A stretch of DNA of 64,000 bases from Nitrospirota bacterium (GTDB lineage: Bacteria; Nitrospirota; Nitrospiria; Nitrospirales; Nitrospiraceae), in assembly GCA_026387665.1 (NCBI GenBank), contig JAPLLG010000008.1:186001-250000 (forward strand), read 5' to 3'. The notes below the pieces were generated by a model that saw nothing but the letters and a program-made list of their open reading frames with translations, made no database searches and was not told the origin of the DNA. The stretch's first letter is position 1. Each line of letters opens with the position of its first letter. Below, piece by piece: positions 10,638-46,470 of this stretch. Position numbers and translations under genes: made by a program.

Positions 10638-12067
10638 AGGGGCTCAGGATTCTGCTCGTGGATGACGAGCCGTTGATGCGACTTTCGATGGTCGATGCGC
10701 TGGAGGCCGTCGGCCATGAAGTGGAAGCGGCGGCATCCGGCACGGACGGCCTCGACGCCGTCCGTCGGCGGCCCTTCGATTTGGTGATTACGGATCTGCG
10801 CCTGCCAGGCGCGGACGGCCTCACGGTGCTCACTGCGACCAAGGAGCAAGCGCCCCACACGGAGGTGGTGGTGATTACCGCCCACGGGTCGGTGGAAACG
10901 GCGGTCGGGGCGATGAAGCTCGGCGCCTTCGACTACATCACCAAACCGTTCCAGATGGACGAATTATTATTGATCGTCGAACGGGTGGGCCGTGTGGTGG
11001 CGCTACGGCGCGAGAATCAGGACCTCAAGGAAGCTCTGGAAGATAAGTTCAGCTTCGGGGGCATTCTCGGCACGAACAATCAAATGCGCGCGGTGCTCGA
11101 CAAGATCAAGCTGGTGGCCGGCACGGATTCGACGACGTTGATTCTTGGAGAGAGCGGCACCGGCAAGGAGCTGGTGGCCAATGCCATCCATCAAAACAGC
11201 GCCAGAAGCCAACACCCTCTGATCAAGGTCAGTTGCGCGGCCTTGCCGGAAACCTTGCTGGAGGCGGAGCTCTTCGGCCATGAGAAGGGGGCCTTCACCG
11301 GGGCGATGAAGCAGCGGCGCGGACGATTCGAGCTGGCGCATCGCGGGACGCTGTTTCTCGACGAAATCGGGGAAATTTCTCCGGTCATCCAGGTCAAACT
11401 CTTGCGGGTGCTTCAAGAGCGGCAGTTCGAGCGTGTCGGAGGGAACGACCGGATCGACGTCGACGTGCGGCTGGTCTGTGCGACGCAAAAAGATCTGCGG
11501 AAAGAAGTCTCGCAGGGACGGTTTCGCGAAGATCTGTTTTACCGGCTCAATGTCGTGCATATCGTGATCCCGCCGTTGCGCCAACGGCAGGAAGACATCA
11601 TGGTCATTGCGGAGCATGTGCTGAAGACTTGCGCCAGCAAGATGAATAAAACGGTGAAGGGGCTTTCGCCCGTGGCGCGCGAGCTGTTTTTGCGCTATTC
11701 GTTTCCCGGGAATGTGCGGGAATTAGAGAATATGGTCGAGCGGGCGGTGGCGCTGGGGCGGGATCGTGAGGCGATTCAGCCGGCTGATCTCTGCGGCTTC
11801 CAGTCCTGTCCCTATACGGGAGGGCTCCCTCAAGAGTCTTGCGGGTTCTGTAGCGAAGGACTGACGGGGCAGAAGCGCGAGGAGCGGCCGCTGACCTCGC
11901 TGGCGACGGCGCGGGAGCAATTCGAGCGTGAATATATTGTGTCGGTCCTCGGACGGGTAGAGGGCAGCCGAACGACGGCCGCGAAGGTCCTTGGTCTCTC
12001 GCGCAAAGCTCTCTGGGAAAAGTGCAAACGCTACGGGATTCCATCGGCTAAGGATGAACCAGAGTAG
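10634..12067 (+). CDS. NtrC-family sigma-54 response regulator
   Basis: A 477-residue regulator with receiver, AAA+ and Fis-type domains. The receiver has the acidic pair at 10-12 and phospho-acceptor Asp54 in ITDLRLPG. The AAA+ domain has Walker A GESGTGKE, the sigma-54-contacting GAFTGA loop (EKGAFTGAMKQRRGRFE) and TLFLDEIGEI as Walker B. A Cys-rich stretch (CGFQSCPYTGGLPQESCGFC) sits in the linker before the helix-turn-helix ARTTAAKVLGLSRK-like region near the C-terminus. That Cys cluster is unusual and could bind metal. It overlaps the kinase gene by 4 nt, so a two-component pair is inferred. No convincing sigma-54 promoter was found nearby. Confidence 0.94.
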   Translation: MKGLRILLVDDEPLMRLSMVDALEAVGHEVEAAASGTDGLDAVRRRPFDLVITDLRLPGADGLTVLTATKEQAPHTEVVVITAHGSVETAVGAMKLGAFDYITKPFQMDELLLIVERVGRVVALRRENQDLKEALEDKFSFGGILGTNNQMRAVLDKIKLVAGTDSTTLILGESGTGKELVANAIHQNSARSQHPLIKVSCAALPETLLEAELFGHEKGAFTGAMKQRRGRFELAHRGTLFLDEIGEISPVIQVKLLRVLQERQFERVGGNDRIDVDVRLVCATQKDLRKEVSQGRFREDLFYRLNVVHIVIPPLRQRQEDIMVIAEHVLKTCASKMNKTVKGLSPVARELFLRYSFPGNVRELENMVERAVALGRDREAIQPADLCGFQSCPYTGGLPQESCGFCSEGLTGQKREERPLTSLATAREQFEREYIVSVLGRVEGSRTTAAKVLGLSRKALWEKCKRYGIPSAKDEPE

Positions 12068-12132
12068 GCGTAACGGATAGTCAAACGTCCGTTCAGCATG
12101 AACATGCTGAACGGACGTTTTGAGCATCCTGC
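12065..12132 (+). repeat. Short family A element / terminator hairpin after the response regulator
   Basis: An 18-bp perfect inverted repeat (12083-12100 with 12103-12120) is followed by TTTTGAGCATCCTGC, the same right end as the longer family A elements. The left boundary coincides with the TAG stop of the response regulator gene. It looks like a shortened or internally deleted copy, and should also work as a rho-independent terminator for the kinase-regulator operon. Confidence 0.7.
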
Positions 12133-23109: not shown

Positions 23110-23934
23110 ATGGTGCGTACGACGAAGAGTTCTTCCCGCCCGCTACTGTTGCTCCTATTCATCCTGGTCGTGGCCGGCGTGTTCGTCGGCTTCGGCGTGC
23201 CCCTCGTCAGTTCCGAGGGCATGATCATCCGCGCGCGCCTCGTCGAGGGAGAGCTGCCGGTTGGGCCGGAGGATGCAGCCTGGGCCACAGTGGCGCCGAT
23301 GACTATTCCTTTGAGCGGCCAGGTCATTACCAGACCGGTCTGGCCTGAGCCGACGGCGCGGGCCTTGACGGTGCGGACGCTCCATAACGGCATCGAGATC
23401 GCGTTTCTGCTGGAATGGCAGGACAACACGAAGAACGATCGTTTGACGCCAGGGACCTTTCGCGACGGCGTCGCGATCGGGTTGCCGCTCGGCGATGCCC
23501 CCGCATTTTTCTGCATGGGCCAACTCGACCACTACATCAATATCTGGCATTGGAAAGCCGACTGGCAGAGCGATATCGATCGCCGAGCCGCCCGGGCCTC
23601 CGAGAGGGCTCGCGAAGGCGTGCGGACATTCGAAGTCATTCCGCGCCGGGTCTCCTCGGTCGAAGACCTCATTGGCGGGGGCTTCAGCACGCTGACAACC
23701 AAAGAAAAGCAGGGGCGGGTCCAGGGCAAGGCTGTGTGGAAAGAGGGAGTCTGGCATGTCGTCATGCGCAGACCCCTGGTGAGCGAAGAGCAGGAGAACG
23801 AAGCCAAGCTGATTCCAGGCCGGGTGCAAACCGTGTCCTTCGCCGTCTGGAACGGCGAGAACAAGGAACGAAACGGGCAAAAATCCGTGGCCCCGTGGTT
23901 TCAGCTGGTCATCGACCCTGTGGCGAAGCTTTAG
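23110..23934 (+). CDS. NxrC-like heme-b binding subunit, divergent copy 2
   Basis: A 274-residue paralogue of the protein at 16386. The ATG at 23110 is chosen because GAGGA lies six bases before it and a signal helix follows at once (PLLLLLFILVVAGVFVGFGV); an ATG at 23038 would add a meaningless lead. Shared motifs are TIPLSGQVITRPVWPE, EIAFLLEWQDNTKNDR, FRDGVAIGLPL, FFCMGQLDHYINIWHWKADW and VSFAVWNGENKERNGQKS. Compared with copy 1 the middle is shorter, lacking the WDVDDQYPGIFWDYYFE region. Both could serve different oxidoreductase complexes or be alternative NxrC subunits. Confidence 0.85.
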   Translation: MVRTTKSSSRPLLLLLFILVVAGVFVGFGVPLVSSEGMIIRARLVEGELPVGPEDAAWATVAPMTIPLSGQVITRPVWPEPTARALTVRTLHNGIEIAFLLEWQDNTKNDRLTPGTFRDGVAIGLPLGDAPAFFCMGQLDHYINIWHWKADWQSDIDRRAARASERAREGVRTFEVIPRRVSSVEDLIGGGFSTLTTKEKQGRVQGKAVWKEGVWHVVMRRPLVSEEQENEAKLIPGRVQTVSFAVWNGENKERNGQKSVAPWFQLVIDPVAKL

Positions 23935-24059
23935 CAGGATGCTGAAACAGGCCGCCAGCTTCGTTCTCGGCTCATCGAAATCCTCAACGTACCCCTGAGG
24001 GTACGCCTCCGGTTTCGATTCGCCTGCGGCCTCGCTGACGGCCTGTTTGAGCATCCTGC
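23932..24059 (+). repeat. Family A palindromic element, anchored at TAG stop
   Basis: The element starts with the TAG stop codon of the NxrC-like copy 2 gene. The ends GCAGGATGCTGAAACAGG and GCCTGTTTGAGCATCCTGC pair with each other. Inside are a middle stem (CGAAATCC with GGTTTCG) and a hairpin CGTACCC-CTGA-GGGTACG. A-rich and T-rich flanks on the two arms make it a plausible bidirectional terminator. Confidence 0.85.
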
Positions 24060-27811: not shown

Positions 27812-27885
27812 GGGAGCGAAGAGAAGTTGGTGCCGGTGTGTAGCAGCCGGTTGCGTACGATGCTTCACGAGATACGTGTCACGAA

Positions 27886-28008
27886 GGGTGTTCAAAAAGC
27901 CTGTCCAGCAAGGCCGCAGCGAGTGAAGGGCCGAGGCATACCCGGAGGGTATGTTGAGGGTCTGAACGAAGCGAGAACGAAGCTGGCGGGCTTTTTGACT
28001 GCCCGCTA
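27886..28008 (-). repeat. Family A palindromic element, inverted orientation, anchored at TAG stop
   Basis: Read on the minus strand it begins at the TAG stop of the gene at 28006-28260, then continues with CAAAAAGCCCGCCAGC and ends with GCTGGACAGGCTTTTTGA. The inner hairpin is CATACCC-TCC-GGGTATG, a compensated variant of the CGTACCC/GGGTACG hairpin in other copies. The outermost bases have diverged from GCAGGATGCT. Confidence 0.8.
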
Positions 28009-28893: not shown

Positions 28894-30883
28894 GTGAGCG
28901 ACTCATCCATCATTACGTTTGCGTTGGTATCGGCGGTGACCGGCATTGCCTATGGCCTCTATCTGGCCATGTGGGTGTTTAAGCTGGATGCCGGCAATCC
29001 GAAGATGCAAGAAATTGCCAAGGCCATTCAGGAAGGCGCGAGCGCCTATCTGAACCGCCAGTATCGGACCGTCGGCGTCGTTGCGGCTGTGTTGTTCGCG
29101 ATGTTGTGGGGCGGAGGGGCGTTCTCCGACAAATTCGGTTTGCTGACTGCGATCGGATTTTTGATTGGCGCAGGCGCGTCGTCGCTGGCCGGCTATGTGG
29201 GCATGGTCATCGCGGTGCGGGCGAACGTGCGGACGGCGCAGGCTGCGCATAACGGGATGAATGCGGCGTTGACCGTGGCCTTCCGCGGCGGCGCGGTGAC
29301 GGGGCTCTTGTTGATCGGCTTGGGCCTGCTGGCCATCACCACCTTCTATGTGGTGGCGTCGCAGATTGCGGGGCAGGAGAAGGCGATTCATGCCCTGTTG
29401 AGTCTTGGATTCGGCGGCAGTTTGATTTCGGTCTTTGCCCGGGTGGGCGGCGGTATCTATACAAAAGCGGCGGACGTTGGCGCGGATCTCGTCGGGAAAG
29501 TCGAAGCGGGGATTCCGGAAGACGATCCGCGCAACCCGGCAGTCATCGCGGATAACGTGGGAGACAATGTCGGCGATTGCGCCGGTATGGCCGCGGATCT
29601 CTTCGAGACCTACGCGGTGACGACGGTCGCAGCGATGGTCCTGGCCTTCACCCTGTTCAAGGGAGTCAGCGCGCCGATTCTGTATCCTCTGGCGTTGGGC
29701 GGCGTGACGATCTTCGCGACGATCATCGGCATTCTCTTTGTGAAGGTGAGCGAAGGCGGCGGGATCATGCCGGCGCTCTACAAGGGCCTGTTCGTGGCGG
29801 GCGGCATCGCTGCGGTAGCCTTCTATCCTGTGACGACCTCGATCATGTCTGGTGTGGGCGGCGTGAGCGGGATGAGCTACTACCTCGCCTCGTTGATCGG
29901 CTTGGCCGTGACCCTTGCCCTCGTCTTTATCACCGATTACTACACGTCGAAGAGCTATGCGCCGGTGAAGGCGATTGCCAAGGCCAGCGAAACGGGCCAT
30001 GCGACGAACATCATTGCAGGATTGGCCGTTGGAATGGAGGCGACGGCCTTGCCGGTGGTGGTGATCGGCGCGGCGATTCTGACGAGCTACTGGCTGTGTG
30101 GCGGCGCGGCATCGGGCGGCTTGTATGGCGTGGCCACTGCGGCAGTCTCGATGTTGTCGATGGCCGGGATTGTGGTGGCGATCGATGCCTTCGGTCCGAT
30201 TACCGACAACGCAGGCGGCATTGCGGAGATGGCGCACCTCGGCAAAGAGGTGCGGGACATTACCGATCCGTTGGATGCGGTCGGCAATACGACCAAAGCC
30301 GTGACGAAGGGCTATGCGATCGGATCGGCCGGTCTTGCGGCGGTGGTGTTGTTCGCCGAATATGCCCGTGAAGTGGCGAAGGGGAGCGGGGCGAGCACCT
30401 TCGACCTCTCCAATCCTTCGGTCCTGGTCGGACTTTTCCTGGGCGGCATGTTGCCCTTCATCTTCGGGGCCCTCTGTATGAAGGCTGTGGGAGAAGCAGC
30501 AGGCCTCGTGGTGGAAGAAGTGCGGCGGCAGTTCCGGACGATCAAGGGGATCATGGAAGGCACAGGCAAGCCGGAATACGGGACCTGCGTGGATATTGTC
30601 ACGCAGGCGGCGATCAAGAAGATGATGGTGCCGGGATTGATTCCCGTCATCTCCCCGATCCTGGTCGGCGTGATTCTGGGGCCGCAGGCCTTGGGCGGCA
30701 TGCTCGTCGGCAGCATTGTCACCGGTCTGTTCGTCGCGATTGAAGGGGACGGACACGCACAAGGCGGCCGTCACCGGCGACACGGTTGGCGATCCCTACA
30801 AGGATACGGCCGGCCCGGCGATCAATCCGATGATCAAGGTCATTAACATCGTGGCTCTGCTCATCGTCTCGCTGCTCGTGTAG
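28894..30883 (+). CDS. hppA: K+-independent H+-translocating pyrophosphatase, broken near its 3' end
   Basis: The membrane pyrophosphatase couples PPi hydrolysis to proton pumping. Intact parts include [20 protein letters not shown] and [18 protein letters not shown] (substrate and Mg binding), [12 protein letters not shown] and [13 protein letters not shown]; Lys in GNTTKA marks the K+-independent subclass. After VTGLFVAI (ending 30741) the frame switches: the next expected residues, [20 protein letters not shown], are read in the +1 frame from 30743 and continue to a TAG at 30881-30883. The conserved segment with GGGAWDNAKK, about 25 codons, is missing at the junction. The unshifted frame runs into an aberrant tail ending at 30846. 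The start is GTG 28894 behind GGAGGAG. Either a recent inactivating deletion or an assembly error. Confidence 0.92.
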
Positions 30884-31008
30884 CAGGATGCTGAAAAAGT
30901 CCGCCAGCTTCGTTCTCGGCTCATCGAAATCCTCAACGTACCCCTGAGGGTACGCCTCCGGTTTCGATTCGCCTGCGGCCTTGCTGGACGGAATTTTTGA
31001 GCATCCTG
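30881..31008 (+). repeat. Family A palindromic element, anchored at the hppA TAG
   Basis: It begins with the TAG that would end the restored hppA frame, then GCAGGATGCTGAAAAAGTCC, and ends GGAATTTTTGAGCATCCTG. Its interior is nearly identical to the copy at 23932 (same CGTACCC-CTGA-GGGTACG hairpin), while the outer arms differ but remain paired. Confidence 0.85.
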
Positions 31009-31074
31009 GAAGTGATTCTCGGCGTTCCTGAATGGCGAGCATGGGATTGGTCAGTATTCAGCTTTCAGCTCCGT

Positions 31075-31512: not shown

Positions 31513-31723
31513 GCAGGATGCTGAAGCCGTCCGCCAGCAGGGTGGGATGGCCCAGTGAGTCCCCTGTGCTCGTGCAACGCGCGGTCTCAGAAGACCCTCG
31601 TTGGACGCGCGCAGTGGGGGACTCATCCGGGCCATCCTAGGAAACGTACACGAGCAAGCTTGGAAGAACCATCTTGGATCGCTCGCTTGCGGCCTTGCTG
31701 GACGGACGGTTTGAGCATCCTGC
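31513..31723 (+). repeat. Chimeric element: family A ends around an inverted family B unit
   Basis: The ends GCAGGATGCTGAAGCCGTCC and GGACGGACGGTTTGAGCATC are family A. In place of the usual interior lies a family B unit (31545-31637) in minus orientation, with arms GGATGGCCCAGTGAGTCCCC and GGGGACTCATCCGGGCCATC and inner stem GGTCT/AGACC. The remainder to 31700 is unique. The surrounding gap 31452-31923 holds no credible gene. Confidence 0.8.
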
Positions 31724-33628: not shown

Positions 33629-35806
33629 ATGGTGTACGAAACCGTCACAGATCTTGACCAGTTGCTGGATCGGATCAAGAGTTATGCCGCCGATGCCGAT
33701 CTCGGGCTAGTCCGCAAGGCCTACGAATTCTCTGCGAAAGCGCATGAAGGGCAGCGGCGCCGGTCCGGAGAACCCTACCTGCAACATCCCATCGCGGTCG
33801 CCGGAGTCCTCACCTCGCTTAAAACGGATGTGACCGCCATCGTCGCGGGCCTCCTGCACGATACCCTGGAAGATACGGTCGCCACAGCTGACGAACTTGA
33901 AAGAGAGTTCGGCAAGGATGTGCTGCATCTGGTCGACGGGGTGACCAAGATCGGCAAGATCACGTTCCGGAGCTATGAAGAGAAGCAGGCGGAGAATTTC
34001 CGCAAGATGTTGCTCTCGATGGCGGACGACATCCGGGTCGTCCTCATCAAGCTCGCCGACCGGCTCCACAACATGCGCACCTTGGAACATCTCGGCGCAG
34101 CCAAGCGGCAGGAGATTGCCCAGGAGACGCTGGAGATCTATGCGCCGCTGGCCAATCGCCTCGGGATCGGGTGGGTAAAGAATGAGCTGGAAGACCTCTG
34201 TCTCAAGCATCTCAAGCCGGATATCTACGAAATGCTGCGTACCCGCGTGGCGAAACGGGATGAGGATCGGCAGCAGTACATCGATGAAGTCAGCCAGCTT
34301 GTGCAGAAGGCCATGCAGGAGAACGGGTTGGCCGGAGAAGTGTACGGCCGCCCCAAGCACCTCTATGGCATCTATCAAAAGATGAACAAGCAGTCGATTA
34401 CGTTCGAAGAGGTCTATGATCTGACGGCGCTGCGGATCGTGACGGATCTCAAGATGAACTGCTACGCCGTGCTGGGCGTGATCCATTCCCTCTGGCGGCC
34501 CGTGCCGGGGCGCTTCAAAGATTACATCGCGATTCCGAAGTCCAATCTCTATCAGTCGCTTCACACGACGGTGGTGGGCCCGAAGGGGGAGCACGTCGAG
34601 TTCCAGATTCGCACGGAGGACATGCATCGCATCGCCGAGCACGGCATCGCGGCGCACTGGAAGTATAAGGAGCAGGGACAGGTCGCCGATCGTGACAGCA
34701 AGGCGTTCGGCTGGCTCCACCAGTTCGTCGAGTGGCATGAGGATTTGTCGGATAACCGGCAGTTCATGGACTCGGTGAAGCTCGATCTCTTCCACGACGT
34801 GGTCTATGTGTTCACGCCGAAAGGGATCGTGAAGGAGTTGCCGAAGGGATCGACCCCCGTCGATTTTGCTTTCGCGATTCATACCGAGGTCGGAGACCAT
34901 TGCGTCGGGGCCAAGGTGGACGGGAAGATCGTGCCGCTCAAGCATGAGCTGGCCAGCGGCGATACGGTCGAAATTCTGACCTCGCCTACGCAAACGCCGC
35001 ACAAGGACTGGCTGAAGTTCGTCCGCACCTCGCGCGCGAAGACCAAGATCAAACATTGGATCAAGCTTGAAGAGCAGACGCGGAGCGTTGAGATCGGCCG
35101 CCGGTTGCTGGAGTCAGAGTTCCGCCGTCATGGCATGGCGCCGGCTCAGATGTTCAAGTCGGCAGAGCTGTTGGAGGCGGCCCGTCAATCGGGATTCGAC
35201 AGCACCGAGGAATTGACCGCCGCCGTGGGCTTCGGCAGCGTGGCGACCTCACAGGTCATCGGCAAACTCGTCCCGCCATCCGGCACGCAGGAGCCGGTTC
35301 AGGAACGTCCCGTCGCACACAAACTGGTGGGAGGGAAGAGCGACGGCACCGGGGTGCAGGTCAAGGGATCGCGCGACCTGCTCATGCAGTTGTCGCGCTG
35401 TTGTCATCCCGTGCCTGGCGATCGCATCCTCGGCTATATCACGCGAGGGCGCGGCCTGACGATCCATGCTGTCGACTGTCCGAACCTTGTGGCGCTGGAC
35501 TATGATAAAGAGCGGCTAGTTGAAGTGGAGTGGGACTCGGCCACACCCGGCACCCATTCTGTCAAAATGTCCATTGTGGCCGTCGATAAGACCGGGGTGC
35601 TGGCGAATGTGTCCTCTGCGATTGCGGCTTGCCACGCCAACATCAGCCGCGCCGAGATTACGACGCGGGAGGATCAGAAAGCTGAGCTGGATTTCGTCGT
35701 AGAAGTGTCAGGCACCCAGCATCTCGATCAGGTGCTAAAAGCCGTCGAACGGGTGGATGGCGTCATTACCGCGAGAAGATTACGGGCCTGGCAGGAACGA
35801 TCCTAG
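33629..35806 (+). CDS. rel: Bifunctional (p)ppGpp synthetase/hydrolase
   Basis: A 725-residue Rel/SpoT protein. The hydrolase domain retains its HD site (VAGLLHDTLEDTVATAD, near residues 73-89) and HNMRTLEHL. The synthetase domain has RFKDYIAIPKSNLYQSLHTT, then FQIRTEDMHRIAEHGIAAHW. TGS (VYVFTPKGIVKELPKGSTPV), a conserved-cysteine region (LSRCCHPVPGD) and a C-terminal ACT domain follow. Both active sites look intact, so it can make and degrade the stringent-response alarmone. The TAG stop is the anchor of a family A repeat. Confidence 0.95.
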   Translation: MVYETVTDLDQLLDRIKSYAADADLGLVRKAYEFSAKAHEGQRRRSGEPYLQHPIAVAGVLTSLKTDVTAIVAGLLHDTLEDTVATADELEREFGKDVLHLVDGVTKIGKITFRSYEEKQAENFRKMLLSMADDIRVVLIKLADRLHNMRTLEHLGAAKRQEIAQETLEIYAPLANRLGIGWVKNELEDLCLKHLKPDIYEMLRTRVAKRDEDRQQYIDEVSQLVQKAMQENGLAGEVYGRPKHLYGIYQKMNKQSITFEEVYDLTALRIVTDLKMNCYAVLGVIHSLWRPVPGRFKDYIAIPKSNLYQSLHTTVVGPKGEHVEFQIRTEDMHRIAEHGIAAHWKYKEQGQVADRDSKAFGWLHQFVEWHEDLSDNRQFMDSVKLDLFHDVVYVFTPKGIVKELPKGSTPVDFAFAIHTEVGDHCVGAKVDGKIVPLKHELASGDTVEILTSPTQTPHKDWLKFVRTSRAKTKIKHWIKLEEQTRSVEIGRRLLESEFRRHGMAPAQMFKSAELLEAARQSGFDSTEELTAAVGFGSVATSQVIGKLVPPSGTQEPVQERPVAHKLVGGKSDGTGVQVKGSRDLLMQLSRCCHPVPGDRILGYITRGRGLTIHAVDCPNLVALDYDKERLVEVEWDSATPGTHSVKMSIVAVDKTGVLANVSSAIAACHANISRAEITTREDQKAELDFVVEVSGTQHLDQVLKAVERVDGVITARRLRAWQERS

Positions 35807-35933
35807 TCGGATGCTGAAAAAACCCACCAGCGGCGTTCTCGCCTCGAAAGCATCCTGAACATAGCCCAGAGGCTACGCCTCCGGTGCTTTCATCGGCTGC
35901 GGCCTTGCTGGATGAGCTTTTTGAGCATCCTGC
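35804..35933 (+). repeat. Family A palindromic element, anchored at the rel TAG
   Basis: It starts at TAG, then TCGGATGCTGAAAAAACCC, and ends GAGCTTTTTGAGCATCCTGC. The middle stem is GAAAGCATC/GGTGCTTTC and the inner hairpin has TAGCC/GGCTA, both changed from other copies with pairing kept. Confidence 0.85.
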
Positions 35934-41056: not shown

Positions 41057-41179
41057 GCAGGACGCTGAAAAAGTCTGCCAGCTTCGTGCTCGCGTCGCTC
41101 AACGCCTCAACGTACTGGAAGTACGCCTCGGCATCTCGCTCGCTGCGGCCTTGCGGGGCAGCCATTTTGAGCGTCCTGC
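41057..41179 (+). repeat. Family A palindromic element upstream of the deacetylase gene
   Basis: Ends GCAGGACGCTGAAAAAGTC and CATTTTGAGCGTCCTGC pair, with a compensated change (GATGCT to GACGCT, AGCATC to AGCGTC). The inner hairpin is CGTACT-GGA-AGTACG. Unlike most copies, it is not attached to a stop codon and precedes a gene by 23 bases, so it could affect that gene's translation or leader. Confidence 0.8.
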
Positions 41180-44847: not shown

Positions 44848-45642
44848 ATGGTCATGCGAGTCGGGTATTTTCAATTCGCGCCACAGTTCGGTGAGGTCTC
44901 GCGCAATCTCGATACGATTGTGCACATGCTCGACCACGCGGATGCCGACTTGATCGTTTTGCCAGAGCTGTGCGCCTCCGGGTATCAGTTCACATCGCAG
45001 CAGGAAGTGCTCGCTCTGTCGGAGTCGGTGCCGGATGGACCGACGACGCAACGGCTGATCGATCTGGCGAAGCGTCGCAAGATGGTGATTGTCGCCGGTC
45101 TTCCTGAGCGGGCCGGATCTGTCTGCTATAACTCCGCCGTGGTCGTCGGCCCATCCGGGTTCATCGGCTGCTATCGCAAGACCCATCTGTTTTTCGAAGA
45201 AACGCTGTTCTTTACGCCGGGCGATACGGGGTTTCAGGTCTGGGATATCGGACCGGCCAAGATCGGCGTGATGATCTGTTTTGATTGGTATTACCCGGAA
45301 GCCGCTCGCACCTTGGCGCTCAAGGGGGCGGAGATCATCTGTCATCCCTCGAACTTGGTGCTGCCGGATTGCCCCGACTCCATGCCGGTTCGGTGCCGTG
45401 AGAATCGCGTCTTCGCGATTACGAGTAACCGCACGGGCAGCGAAGCACGAGGCGGCAAAGACCGGCTGACCTTTATCGGGAACAGCGAGGTTGTCGCTTC
45501 GAAGGGGGCGATTCTGCATCGTGCGCCGCGCGACCAGGACGAACTGTACATGGTTGAGATCGACCCTGCCGACGCGCGGAACAAAGCCCTCACGCCTTAC
45601 AACGACCTCCTCCGTGATCGCCGCGAATCCCTCTACCGCTAG
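44848..45642 (+). CDS. Carbon-nitrogen hydrolase (nitrilase superfamily amidase)
   Basis: A 264-residue enzyme with the Glu-Lys-Cys triad: Glu40 in LIVLPELCASGYQF, Lys in GCYRKTHLFFEE and Cys in IGVMICFDWYYPEAART. RCRENRVFAITSNRTGSE is the usual fourth conserved segment. The family hydrolyses amides, N-carbamoyl compounds or nitriles; the substrate is not deducible. The ATG at 44848 is followed by a second at 44854. The TAG stop anchors a truncated family A element. Confidence 0.9.
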   Translation: MVMRVGYFQFAPQFGEVSRNLDTIVHMLDHADADLIVLPELCASGYQFTSQQEVLALSESVPDGPTTQRLIDLAKRRKMVIVAGLPERAGSVCYNSAVVVGPSGFIGCYRKTHLFFEETLFFTPGDTGFQVWDIGPAKIGVMICFDWYYPEAARTLALKGAEIICHPSNLVLPDCPDSMPVRCRENRVFAITSNRTGSEARGGKDRLTFIGNSEVVASKGAILHRAPRDQDELYMVEIDPADARNKALTPYNDLLRDRRESLYR

Positions 45643-45669
45643 CAGGATGCTGAAACAGGCCGCTGGCTA
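45640..45669 (+). repeat. Truncated family A element (left end only)
   Basis: It starts at the amidase TAG and reads GCAGGATGCTGAAACAGGCC before diverging into short GATGA/GAGCGATGA-like repeats. No matching right end is found before the next gene. Confidence 0.7.
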
Positions 45670-45802
45670 GAAAGCGATGAACGGTGAGCGATGAGCTATG
45701 AACCGGGAGACGATTGTCCCTTCAGCGTTCCGCGTTCATCGTTTTGGGCTCGGTTTTCCGTGCCGCTTGCACCCCACAGGTTCGCACGGTAGGATTACAG
45801 CT

Positions 45803-46363
45803 ATGAAAGCTCCACTCGGAAAAGGCATCTTCCTCATTGCAGCGCCGTCCTTGCGCGATCCGAATTTTCGGCAGACCGTGGTGTTGCTGTGCGAGCACGG
45901 GGCTGAGGGCGCGCTGGGCGTCGTGGTCAATCGCCCGACGGCCATGTCGGTCTCGGAGGCCTTGCCGCAAGTGCCGATTCTCGAAGGCCAGCGGCACGTG
46001 CTGTTTTCCGGAGGGCCGGTGCAGACGAATCAGGTCATGATGCTTTATCGCTTGGATCAACTGCCTGAGAATTCCCATCATGTCTTCGATGGGATTTGTC
46101 TCGGAGGGGATGCAGAACTGGTCGATCGTATTTTAACTGCCAGTGAAGGGCGCGATGCGTTCCGTGCCTATCTCGGCTATTCCGGCTGGGGGCCAGGGCA
46201 GTTGGAGTCTGAAATGAAGACCGGATCCTGGTTCACCATCCCGGCAGATTCCGATGTTGTCTTCGACAAGGATCCCACTCGTGTCTGGCCCGACATCGTG
46301 AGTGCCCTCGGTGACGACTATCGCCTGTATGCGGACATGCCGTTCGACCCCTCCCTAAATTAG
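45803..46363 (+). CDS. YqgE/AlgH family (UPF0301) protein
   Basis: A 186-residue protein, the normal family length when the ATG at 45803 is used rather than one at 45698. GKGIFLIAAPSLRDPNFRQT, GALGVVVNRPTAMSVSEALP, LFSGGPVQTNQVMML and YLGYSGWGPGQLESEMKTGS are family hallmarks. The molecular role is unsettled. AlgH was linked to alginate regulation in pseudomonads. The TAG stop anchors a family A element. Confidence 0.92.
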   Translation: MKAPLGKGIFLIAAPSLRDPNFRQTVVLLCEHGAEGALGVVVNRPTAMSVSEALPQVPILEGQRHVLFSGGPVQTNQVMMLYRLDQLPENSHHVFDGICLGGDAELVDRILTASEGRDAFRAYLGYSGWGPGQLESEMKTGSWFTIPADSDVVFDKDPTRVWPDIVSALGDDYRLYADMPFDPSLN

Positions 46364-46470
46364 CAGGATGCTGAAAAAGCCCGCCAGCTTCGTTCTCGGA
46401 ACCCGTGAAACGTGAAACGAGGGTCAGCTCGGAGCTGCGGTTTTGCTGACGGTATTTTTGAGCATCCTGC
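46361..46470 (+). repeat. Family A element with altered interior, anchored at the yqgE TAG
   Basis: Ends are canonical (GCAGGATGCTGAAAAAGCCC and ATTTTTGAGCATCCTGC), but the middle is replaced by GTGAAACGTGAAAC and a small hairpin CAGCTCGGAGCTG. The interior thus looks exchangeable while the ends are conserved. Confidence 0.8.

Follow-up and report, generated by a model that had tools for sequence, protein, structure and literature searches.

Palindromic elements in the window

The window, i.e. the whole stretch of DNA that was analysed, is 64 kb long and lies on contig 8 of a 2.64-Mb, 14-contig Nitrospira genome (G000, 99.8% complete). The assignment to Nitrospira comes from a search for genes related to its RelA/SpoT gene. 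The window contains eight copies of one family of palindromic elements and a doubtful ninth member:

12103..12132, plus strand: doubtful member, right-end-like 30 bp only, after a conserved hairpin
23932..24059, plus strand: copy 1, palindrome from the G at 23934 after the target TA at 23932-23933; right TIR eroded
27885..28008, minus strand: copy 2, diverged left tip, TAG followed by CGGGCAGTC
30881..31009, plus strand: copy 3, starting at TAG 30881-30883, where the H+-pyrophosphatase gene actually ends
31513..31723, plus strand: copy 4, composite interior subtype with a GTGCTCGTGCAACGCGCGG block within the palindrome; no stop codon at its start
35804..35933, plus strand: copy 5, left tip TAGTCGG; the RelA/SpoT gene 33629-35806 ends in TAG 35804-35806
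41057..41179, plus strand: copy 6, intergenic, no stop codon at its start
45640..45675 (end approximate), plus strand: copy 7, left-end fragment
46361..46470, plus strand: copy 8, internally shortened palindrome

Besides the stops given above, TAG 23932-23934 is the stop of an ethylbenzene-dehydrogenase-domain gene ending at 23934 (copy 1), TAG 28008-28006 that of the minus-strand gene 28254-28006 (copy 2), TAG 45640-45642 that of the carbon-nitrogen hydrolase gene 44848-45642 (copy 7) and TAG 46361-46363 that of the AlgH-like (DUF179) gene 45803-46363 (copy 8). The first-pass annotation of this DNA had counted seven elements beginning at the TAG of the upstream gene. Six of them are solid (those at 23932, 30881, 35804, 45640 and 46361, and the minus-strand one at 28008-28006, whose TAG is flush with a diverged tip), and the elements at 31513 and 41057 are indeed not at a stop codon, as that annotation implied. 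The seventh, at 12065, is doubtful, as its match to the family is limited to about 30 bp (12103-12132, E 5e-4). At 12067-12132, 3' of a sigma-54 regulator gene ending at 12067, we observed a hairpin (GTCCGTTCAGCAT...ATGCTGAACGGAC) followed by TTTT, which is kept in the ortholog of the relative G001; it is likely the intrinsic terminator of the regulator gene, with an end resembling that of the element.

The stop at copy 3 is missed by the gene call. Compared to the relative L105, the H+-pyrophosphatase gene (28936-30883) misses 62 bp near 30740, and because this deletion shifts the frame, the call stops early, at TAA 30846, whereas the frame with the conserved C-terminus ends at TAG 30881-30883. 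The gap points to a genuine pseudogene or else to a mistake in the assembly. The orthologs in L105 and L182 are without the element. At the copy 1 stop, other species have a different subtype or none, e.g. an element-free TAA in L140 and L181, and of copy 6 only GCAGGACGCTGG is kept in the orthologs L140 and L180. The composite subtype of copy 4 (31513-31723) has a second block, GTGCTCGCGCAACGCGCGG...TCGTTGGACGCGCGC, in its palindrome, possibly a nested element, and is also found at L049, L076, L079, L081, L087 and L091.

The complete element and its candidate transposase

Genome-wide, the end motif GCAGGATGCTSAAA gave 379 matches at up to two mismatches, compared to 20 for a reversed control, from which we estimate about 180 elements in this genome. 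All statistics for the genome are based on a sample of 70 stretches around copies plus the window, selected by sequence matches, with seven loci having come in via a TAG-containing pattern. A search of this sample with a profile made from full-length copies identified 120 copies or pieces, including 98 full palindromes, and the gene context was taken from a simple codon-based gene finder.

The palindrome makes up just one section of a transposon, a point that the first-pass annotation had missed. The complete element is about 200 bp long and consists of a left TIR (GCAGGATGCTGAAAAA), a 127-bp imperfect palindrome, a variable tail of about 60 bp and a right inverted repeat, which reads TTTTTCCGCAGCCTGC at the end of the element (TIR GCAGGCTGCGGAAAAA) and is followed by a second TA. 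An empty site for the copy at L035 is available in G001 (L218; GGACTAGGCC), where GGACTA^GGCC corresponds to GGACTA[200 bp]TAGGCC in an alignment of 459 bp at 90% identity; the insert starts with GCAGGATGCTGAAAA, followed by the 127-bp palindrome, the variable tail and TTTTTCCGCAGCCTGC. A further insertion, at L134:7892, is seen in comparison to many relatives. The sample holds 48 two-ended copies, 20 of which are 199-203 bp long, and TA is present on both sides in 25 of the two-ended copies (target CTAG in 13, TTAG in 5). Of 45 candidate right TIRs, 21 have TA directly behind them, including nearly all of the best ones, and a recognisable right TIR remains in only about a fifth of copies. None of the window copies has a recognisable right end, which is why the palindrome alone had been seen before. 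A model in which the third base of the old stop would directly follow the palindrome (TA^R) was rejected, given that the true right end lies 60-75 bp further on. Thus, the elements are a MITE family of Nitrospira that duplicates TA at a target that is mostly CTAG: they are too small for a transposase gene, have TIRs, show the TA duplication at empty sites and have a TIR in common with an IS.

When the palindrome alone is considered, the element looks one-sided, with YTAG on its left flank, and could be taken for a REP-like sequence spread as single strands by a RAYT (Y1/HUH) transposase, the TAG being the recognised foot of the hairpin; GTAG-REPs, moreover, are known to supply TAG stops. However, the palindrome is 127 bp long instead of 20-40 bp, complete copies have YTAG with TA on both sides and not a GTAG tag at one end, a search for Y1 transposases in this genome found none, and the Y1 genes elsewhere in the genus are not bordered by the element at both ends. 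This origin is also contradicted by the TA duplication seen at the empty site and by the second TIR, as HUH elements are not known to make either. We regard it as extremely improbable.

The MITE instead has a TIR in common with insertion sequences of two other Nitrospira species. Both ends of the IS at L305 (G022) are perfect copies of the TIR GCAGGCTGCGGAAAAA, equal to the right end of the MITE, and the IS at L313 (G021) matches it at 15 of 16 positions; both are about 1.32 kb long and flanked by CTA...TAG, and the L305 transposase scores 280.6 bits with the IS5-family model NF033581 (cut-off 140). Between the left TIR of the MITE and the IS TIR there are 2 mismatches in 16 bases. From the common TIR and target we infer that an IS5-like transposase would move the MITE, the IS5-family IS of these two species being its likely transposase source. 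This parent IS is present elsewhere in the genus and was not found in G000: searches of this 99.8% complete genome for Y1, DDE_3, DUF4096 and DDE_Tnp_1 transposases (PF01797, PF13358, PF13340, PF01609) and for a homolog of a related IS protein gave no hit.

We also examined other candidates for the parent. Carrying other TIRs in the loci seen, the DDE_3 (IS630) elements of the genus were rejected, the TIRs of DUF4096-type IS5 elements do not match in the loci seen, and a gene between two inverted copies at L093 is aminotransferase-like by its sequence and no transposase. A second IS group (L298-L300 and L311; TIR GCAGGCTGTTGACAAA, 1.36-1.38 kb) makes a TA duplication in CTAG and falls between the IS5 and IS1182 models, under both cut-offs; its L298 copy lies 8 bp past the uvrB stop, and its L299 copy, which is autonomous, lies flush with a TAG stop.

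Insertion at TA and the upstream stop codon

The pattern at stop codons noticed in the window is real genome-wide. We found 41 of the 98 full palindromes flush with the stop of the upstream same-strand gene (40 before the H+-pyrophosphatase case in the window was corrected), and these stops are TAG in 34 cases, TAA in 4 and TGA in 3. By comparison, TAA or TAG stop codons make up 17% of the non-coding CTAG sites in our sample and 20% in G001, and against an expectation of 20.5% the observed fraction has p = 1.3e-6. Of the 18 complete copies bordered by TA at each end, 9 are at a stop, again more than the expected 17-20% (p 0.0015-0.005), and in the relatives 17 of 35 copies are flush (14 TAG, 3 TAA). 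TGA is under-represented, ending 3 of the 41 genes with flush copies versus 29% of genes (p = 6e-4). Of the 41 flush copies, 38 retain the left TA, compared to only 18 of the 57 others. Right ends can be flush as well, with the TAG stops of convergent genes (L047, L083 and L098).

We consider it very probable that the anchoring is explained by a MITE that inserts at TA and thereby rebuilds a TAG stop. Insertion is targeted to TA, in CTAG more than in TTAG, and because both element ends start with G, an insertion behind TA in a stop codon, TAG or TAA, gives TAG in frame whatever the old third base. The TA target occurs in TAG and TAA but not in TGA, and the rarity of TGA at flush copies is as this predicts. 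The first-pass annotation had treated the stop codon as in effect part of the repeat, which holds for its G, the first base of the element, whereas its TA belongs to the target. Of the three explanations it had offered, insertion targeted to TAG and mobilisation with a TAG-containing end thus each capture a part, and a terminator fused to the stop is unsupported. Insertions within genes would presumably be purged by selection, leaving stop codons among the few tolerated sites near genes, and in old copies, as TA retention suggests, selection would preserve the stop's TA even as the remainder of the ends erodes. At stops the element would therefore keep an intact tip, which makes the stop look like a part of the repeat. 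The seven flush copies with TAA or TGA must be due to later mutation or to a different insertion history.

Comparison with element-free orthologs allowed us to ask where the genes end when no copy is present. In 104 comparisons, a set weighted by three genes with many orthologs, the position of the stop is identical in 69 and differs by at most one codon in 100, so that proteins keep their C-terminus, as expected if insertion rebuilds the stop. The element-free stops are TAA 29, TAG 22 and TGA 18. These numbers bear on an alternative, namely that the element inserts anywhere near gene ends and that the new stop truncates or extends the protein. Some loci fit this: the ortholog is 14 codons longer at L071 and 9 codons longer, ending in TGA, at L072, and at L100 the right flank TAC suggests that the codon before insertion was no stop. 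At L071 and L100 the insertion may thus have made a new, earlier stop. As a general account it is very unlikely, given that 100 of the 104 comparisons end within one codon and that the other-frame stop within the element (TGA, 12 nt in) is used just once among the copies of this genome (L072, d = -11).

Excess of stop use and maintenance of the palindrome

Stops are hit or retained about 2.5 times above the availability of non-coding CTAG sites, and given this excess an account based on target and selection may be incomplete. Selection against insertion near promoters would yield such an excess. Another explanation is that the palindromes are kept at stops because their hairpin serves as a transcription terminator or stabilises the 3' end of the mRNA, in which case selection would set the position. 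In addition to the 2.5-fold excess itself, this is in line with a very stable hairpin (-56 to -74 kcal/mol for three window copies, z -4.5 to -10), with compensatory changes in 16 of 28 consensus pairs (71 copies) and with a mean pairwise identity of 78% in the palindrome compared to 50% in the tail (17 near-complete copies). Yet a function in RNA would not need the exact register between TA and G, nor would it account for the avoidance of genes ending in TGA, for the right ends of complete copies lying at stops in the same register or for the L299 IS, which has no palindrome and is likewise flush with a stop. Convergent next genes are no commoner than in the background (26 codirectional to 11 convergent, versus 256 to 102), and this counts against a role in termination as the cause. 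Two-sided changes in the arms also far outnumber one-sided ones (122 versus 26 cells, which are not independent events), and this scarcity of one-sided intermediates fits correction between the arms in DNA better than selection on RNA. Taken together, an RNA function as the reason for the stop register is very unlikely.

Returning to insertion at TA as the preferred explanation, the machinery might in addition favour stops or 3' ends, for example through transcription-coupled exposure of targets, with arm-to-arm correction in DNA letting the palindrome outlive the transposon ends; we offer this combination tentatively, as a rather unlikely possibility. The strong co-variation of the arms offers a wealth of natural replicates for work on the maintenance of long palindromes.

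Relation to known systems and recurrence among relatives

The first-pass annotation held that no stop-anchored REP or MITE family had been described. This claim to novelty fails, since the supply of stops has been published for GTAG-REPs and TnRErm46: Di Nocera et al. showed that the termini of GTAG-REPs often give a TAG stop codon (PMC3733652), and TnRErm46 of Rhodococcus equi, with ISRe46 (IS481 family), targets CTAG with a junction that gives some target genes their TAG stop, so that these stay functional (PMC6794481). The likeness to the GTAG-REP/RAYT system (PMC3733652, PMC2817692) is limited to the stop-providing termini, as those elements are 20-40 bp long, carry a GTAG tag, depend on a Y1 transposase and make no target duplication, and the Nitrospira element differs in size, tag and transposase. 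TnRErm46 has the CTAG target and the stop-sparing insertion in common with it, but is an autonomous element of 6.9 kb with an NCTAGN direct repeat, whereas the Nitrospira MITE is non-autonomous, about 200 bp long, duplicates TA and has an IS5-type TIR.

MITEs with TA ends are a standard bacterial kind (PMC5896051, PMC2229807). RUP of Streptococcus pneumoniae, a 107-bp MITE of IS630-Spn1 with a TA target (PMC2229807), resembles the Nitrospira MITE in being short, abundant and intergenic and in having a TIR common to its probable mobilising IS; it differs in its length and its IS630 parent, and the text consulted reports no stop-codon register. ERIC (RU-1/RU-2) and Correia/NEMIS elements are palindromic and MITE-like, with TA duplications and hairpins, and some lie at gene 3' ends (PMC2759123, PMC2229807). 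Their sequence is unrelated, and for an ERIC insertion at a gene end, loss of the stop and a longer protein are reported, whereas the Nitrospira MITE would rebuild TAG. We found no described Nitrospira MITE or palindrome in the open-access literature. The family is thus apparently undescribed; it is new but belongs to a known kind, and its stop-sparing rule is unusually clear.

Stop codons of the TAG and TAA type cannot be destroyed by an element that inserts at TA and has G as its first base. Under such a rule, about 180 copies can build up in a 2.6-Mb genome with proteins little changed, and the rule predicts which stop codons can be occupied, i.e. not TGA. Being so widespread in its taxonomic family, the element is also relevant to annotating genes and to the use of stop codons in this group, which has a central place in nitrification.

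The palindrome has matches in 117 of the 118 genomes of the taxonomic family that were searched, representing 22 genera. At the orthologous stops of the RelA/SpoT, H+-pyrophosphatase and ethylbenzene-dehydrogenase-domain genes, the interior of the element differs by species, or the element is absent; as far as sequence comparison goes, these differences would fit either repeated insertion at a permitted site or exchange of interiors. In addition, a different long palindromic repeat (TCTATTTGGTCTATCTGGTTTGTTTGGTTG...) was observed directly after the RelA/SpoT stop in L105-L107, L113, L115, L140, L144 and L149.
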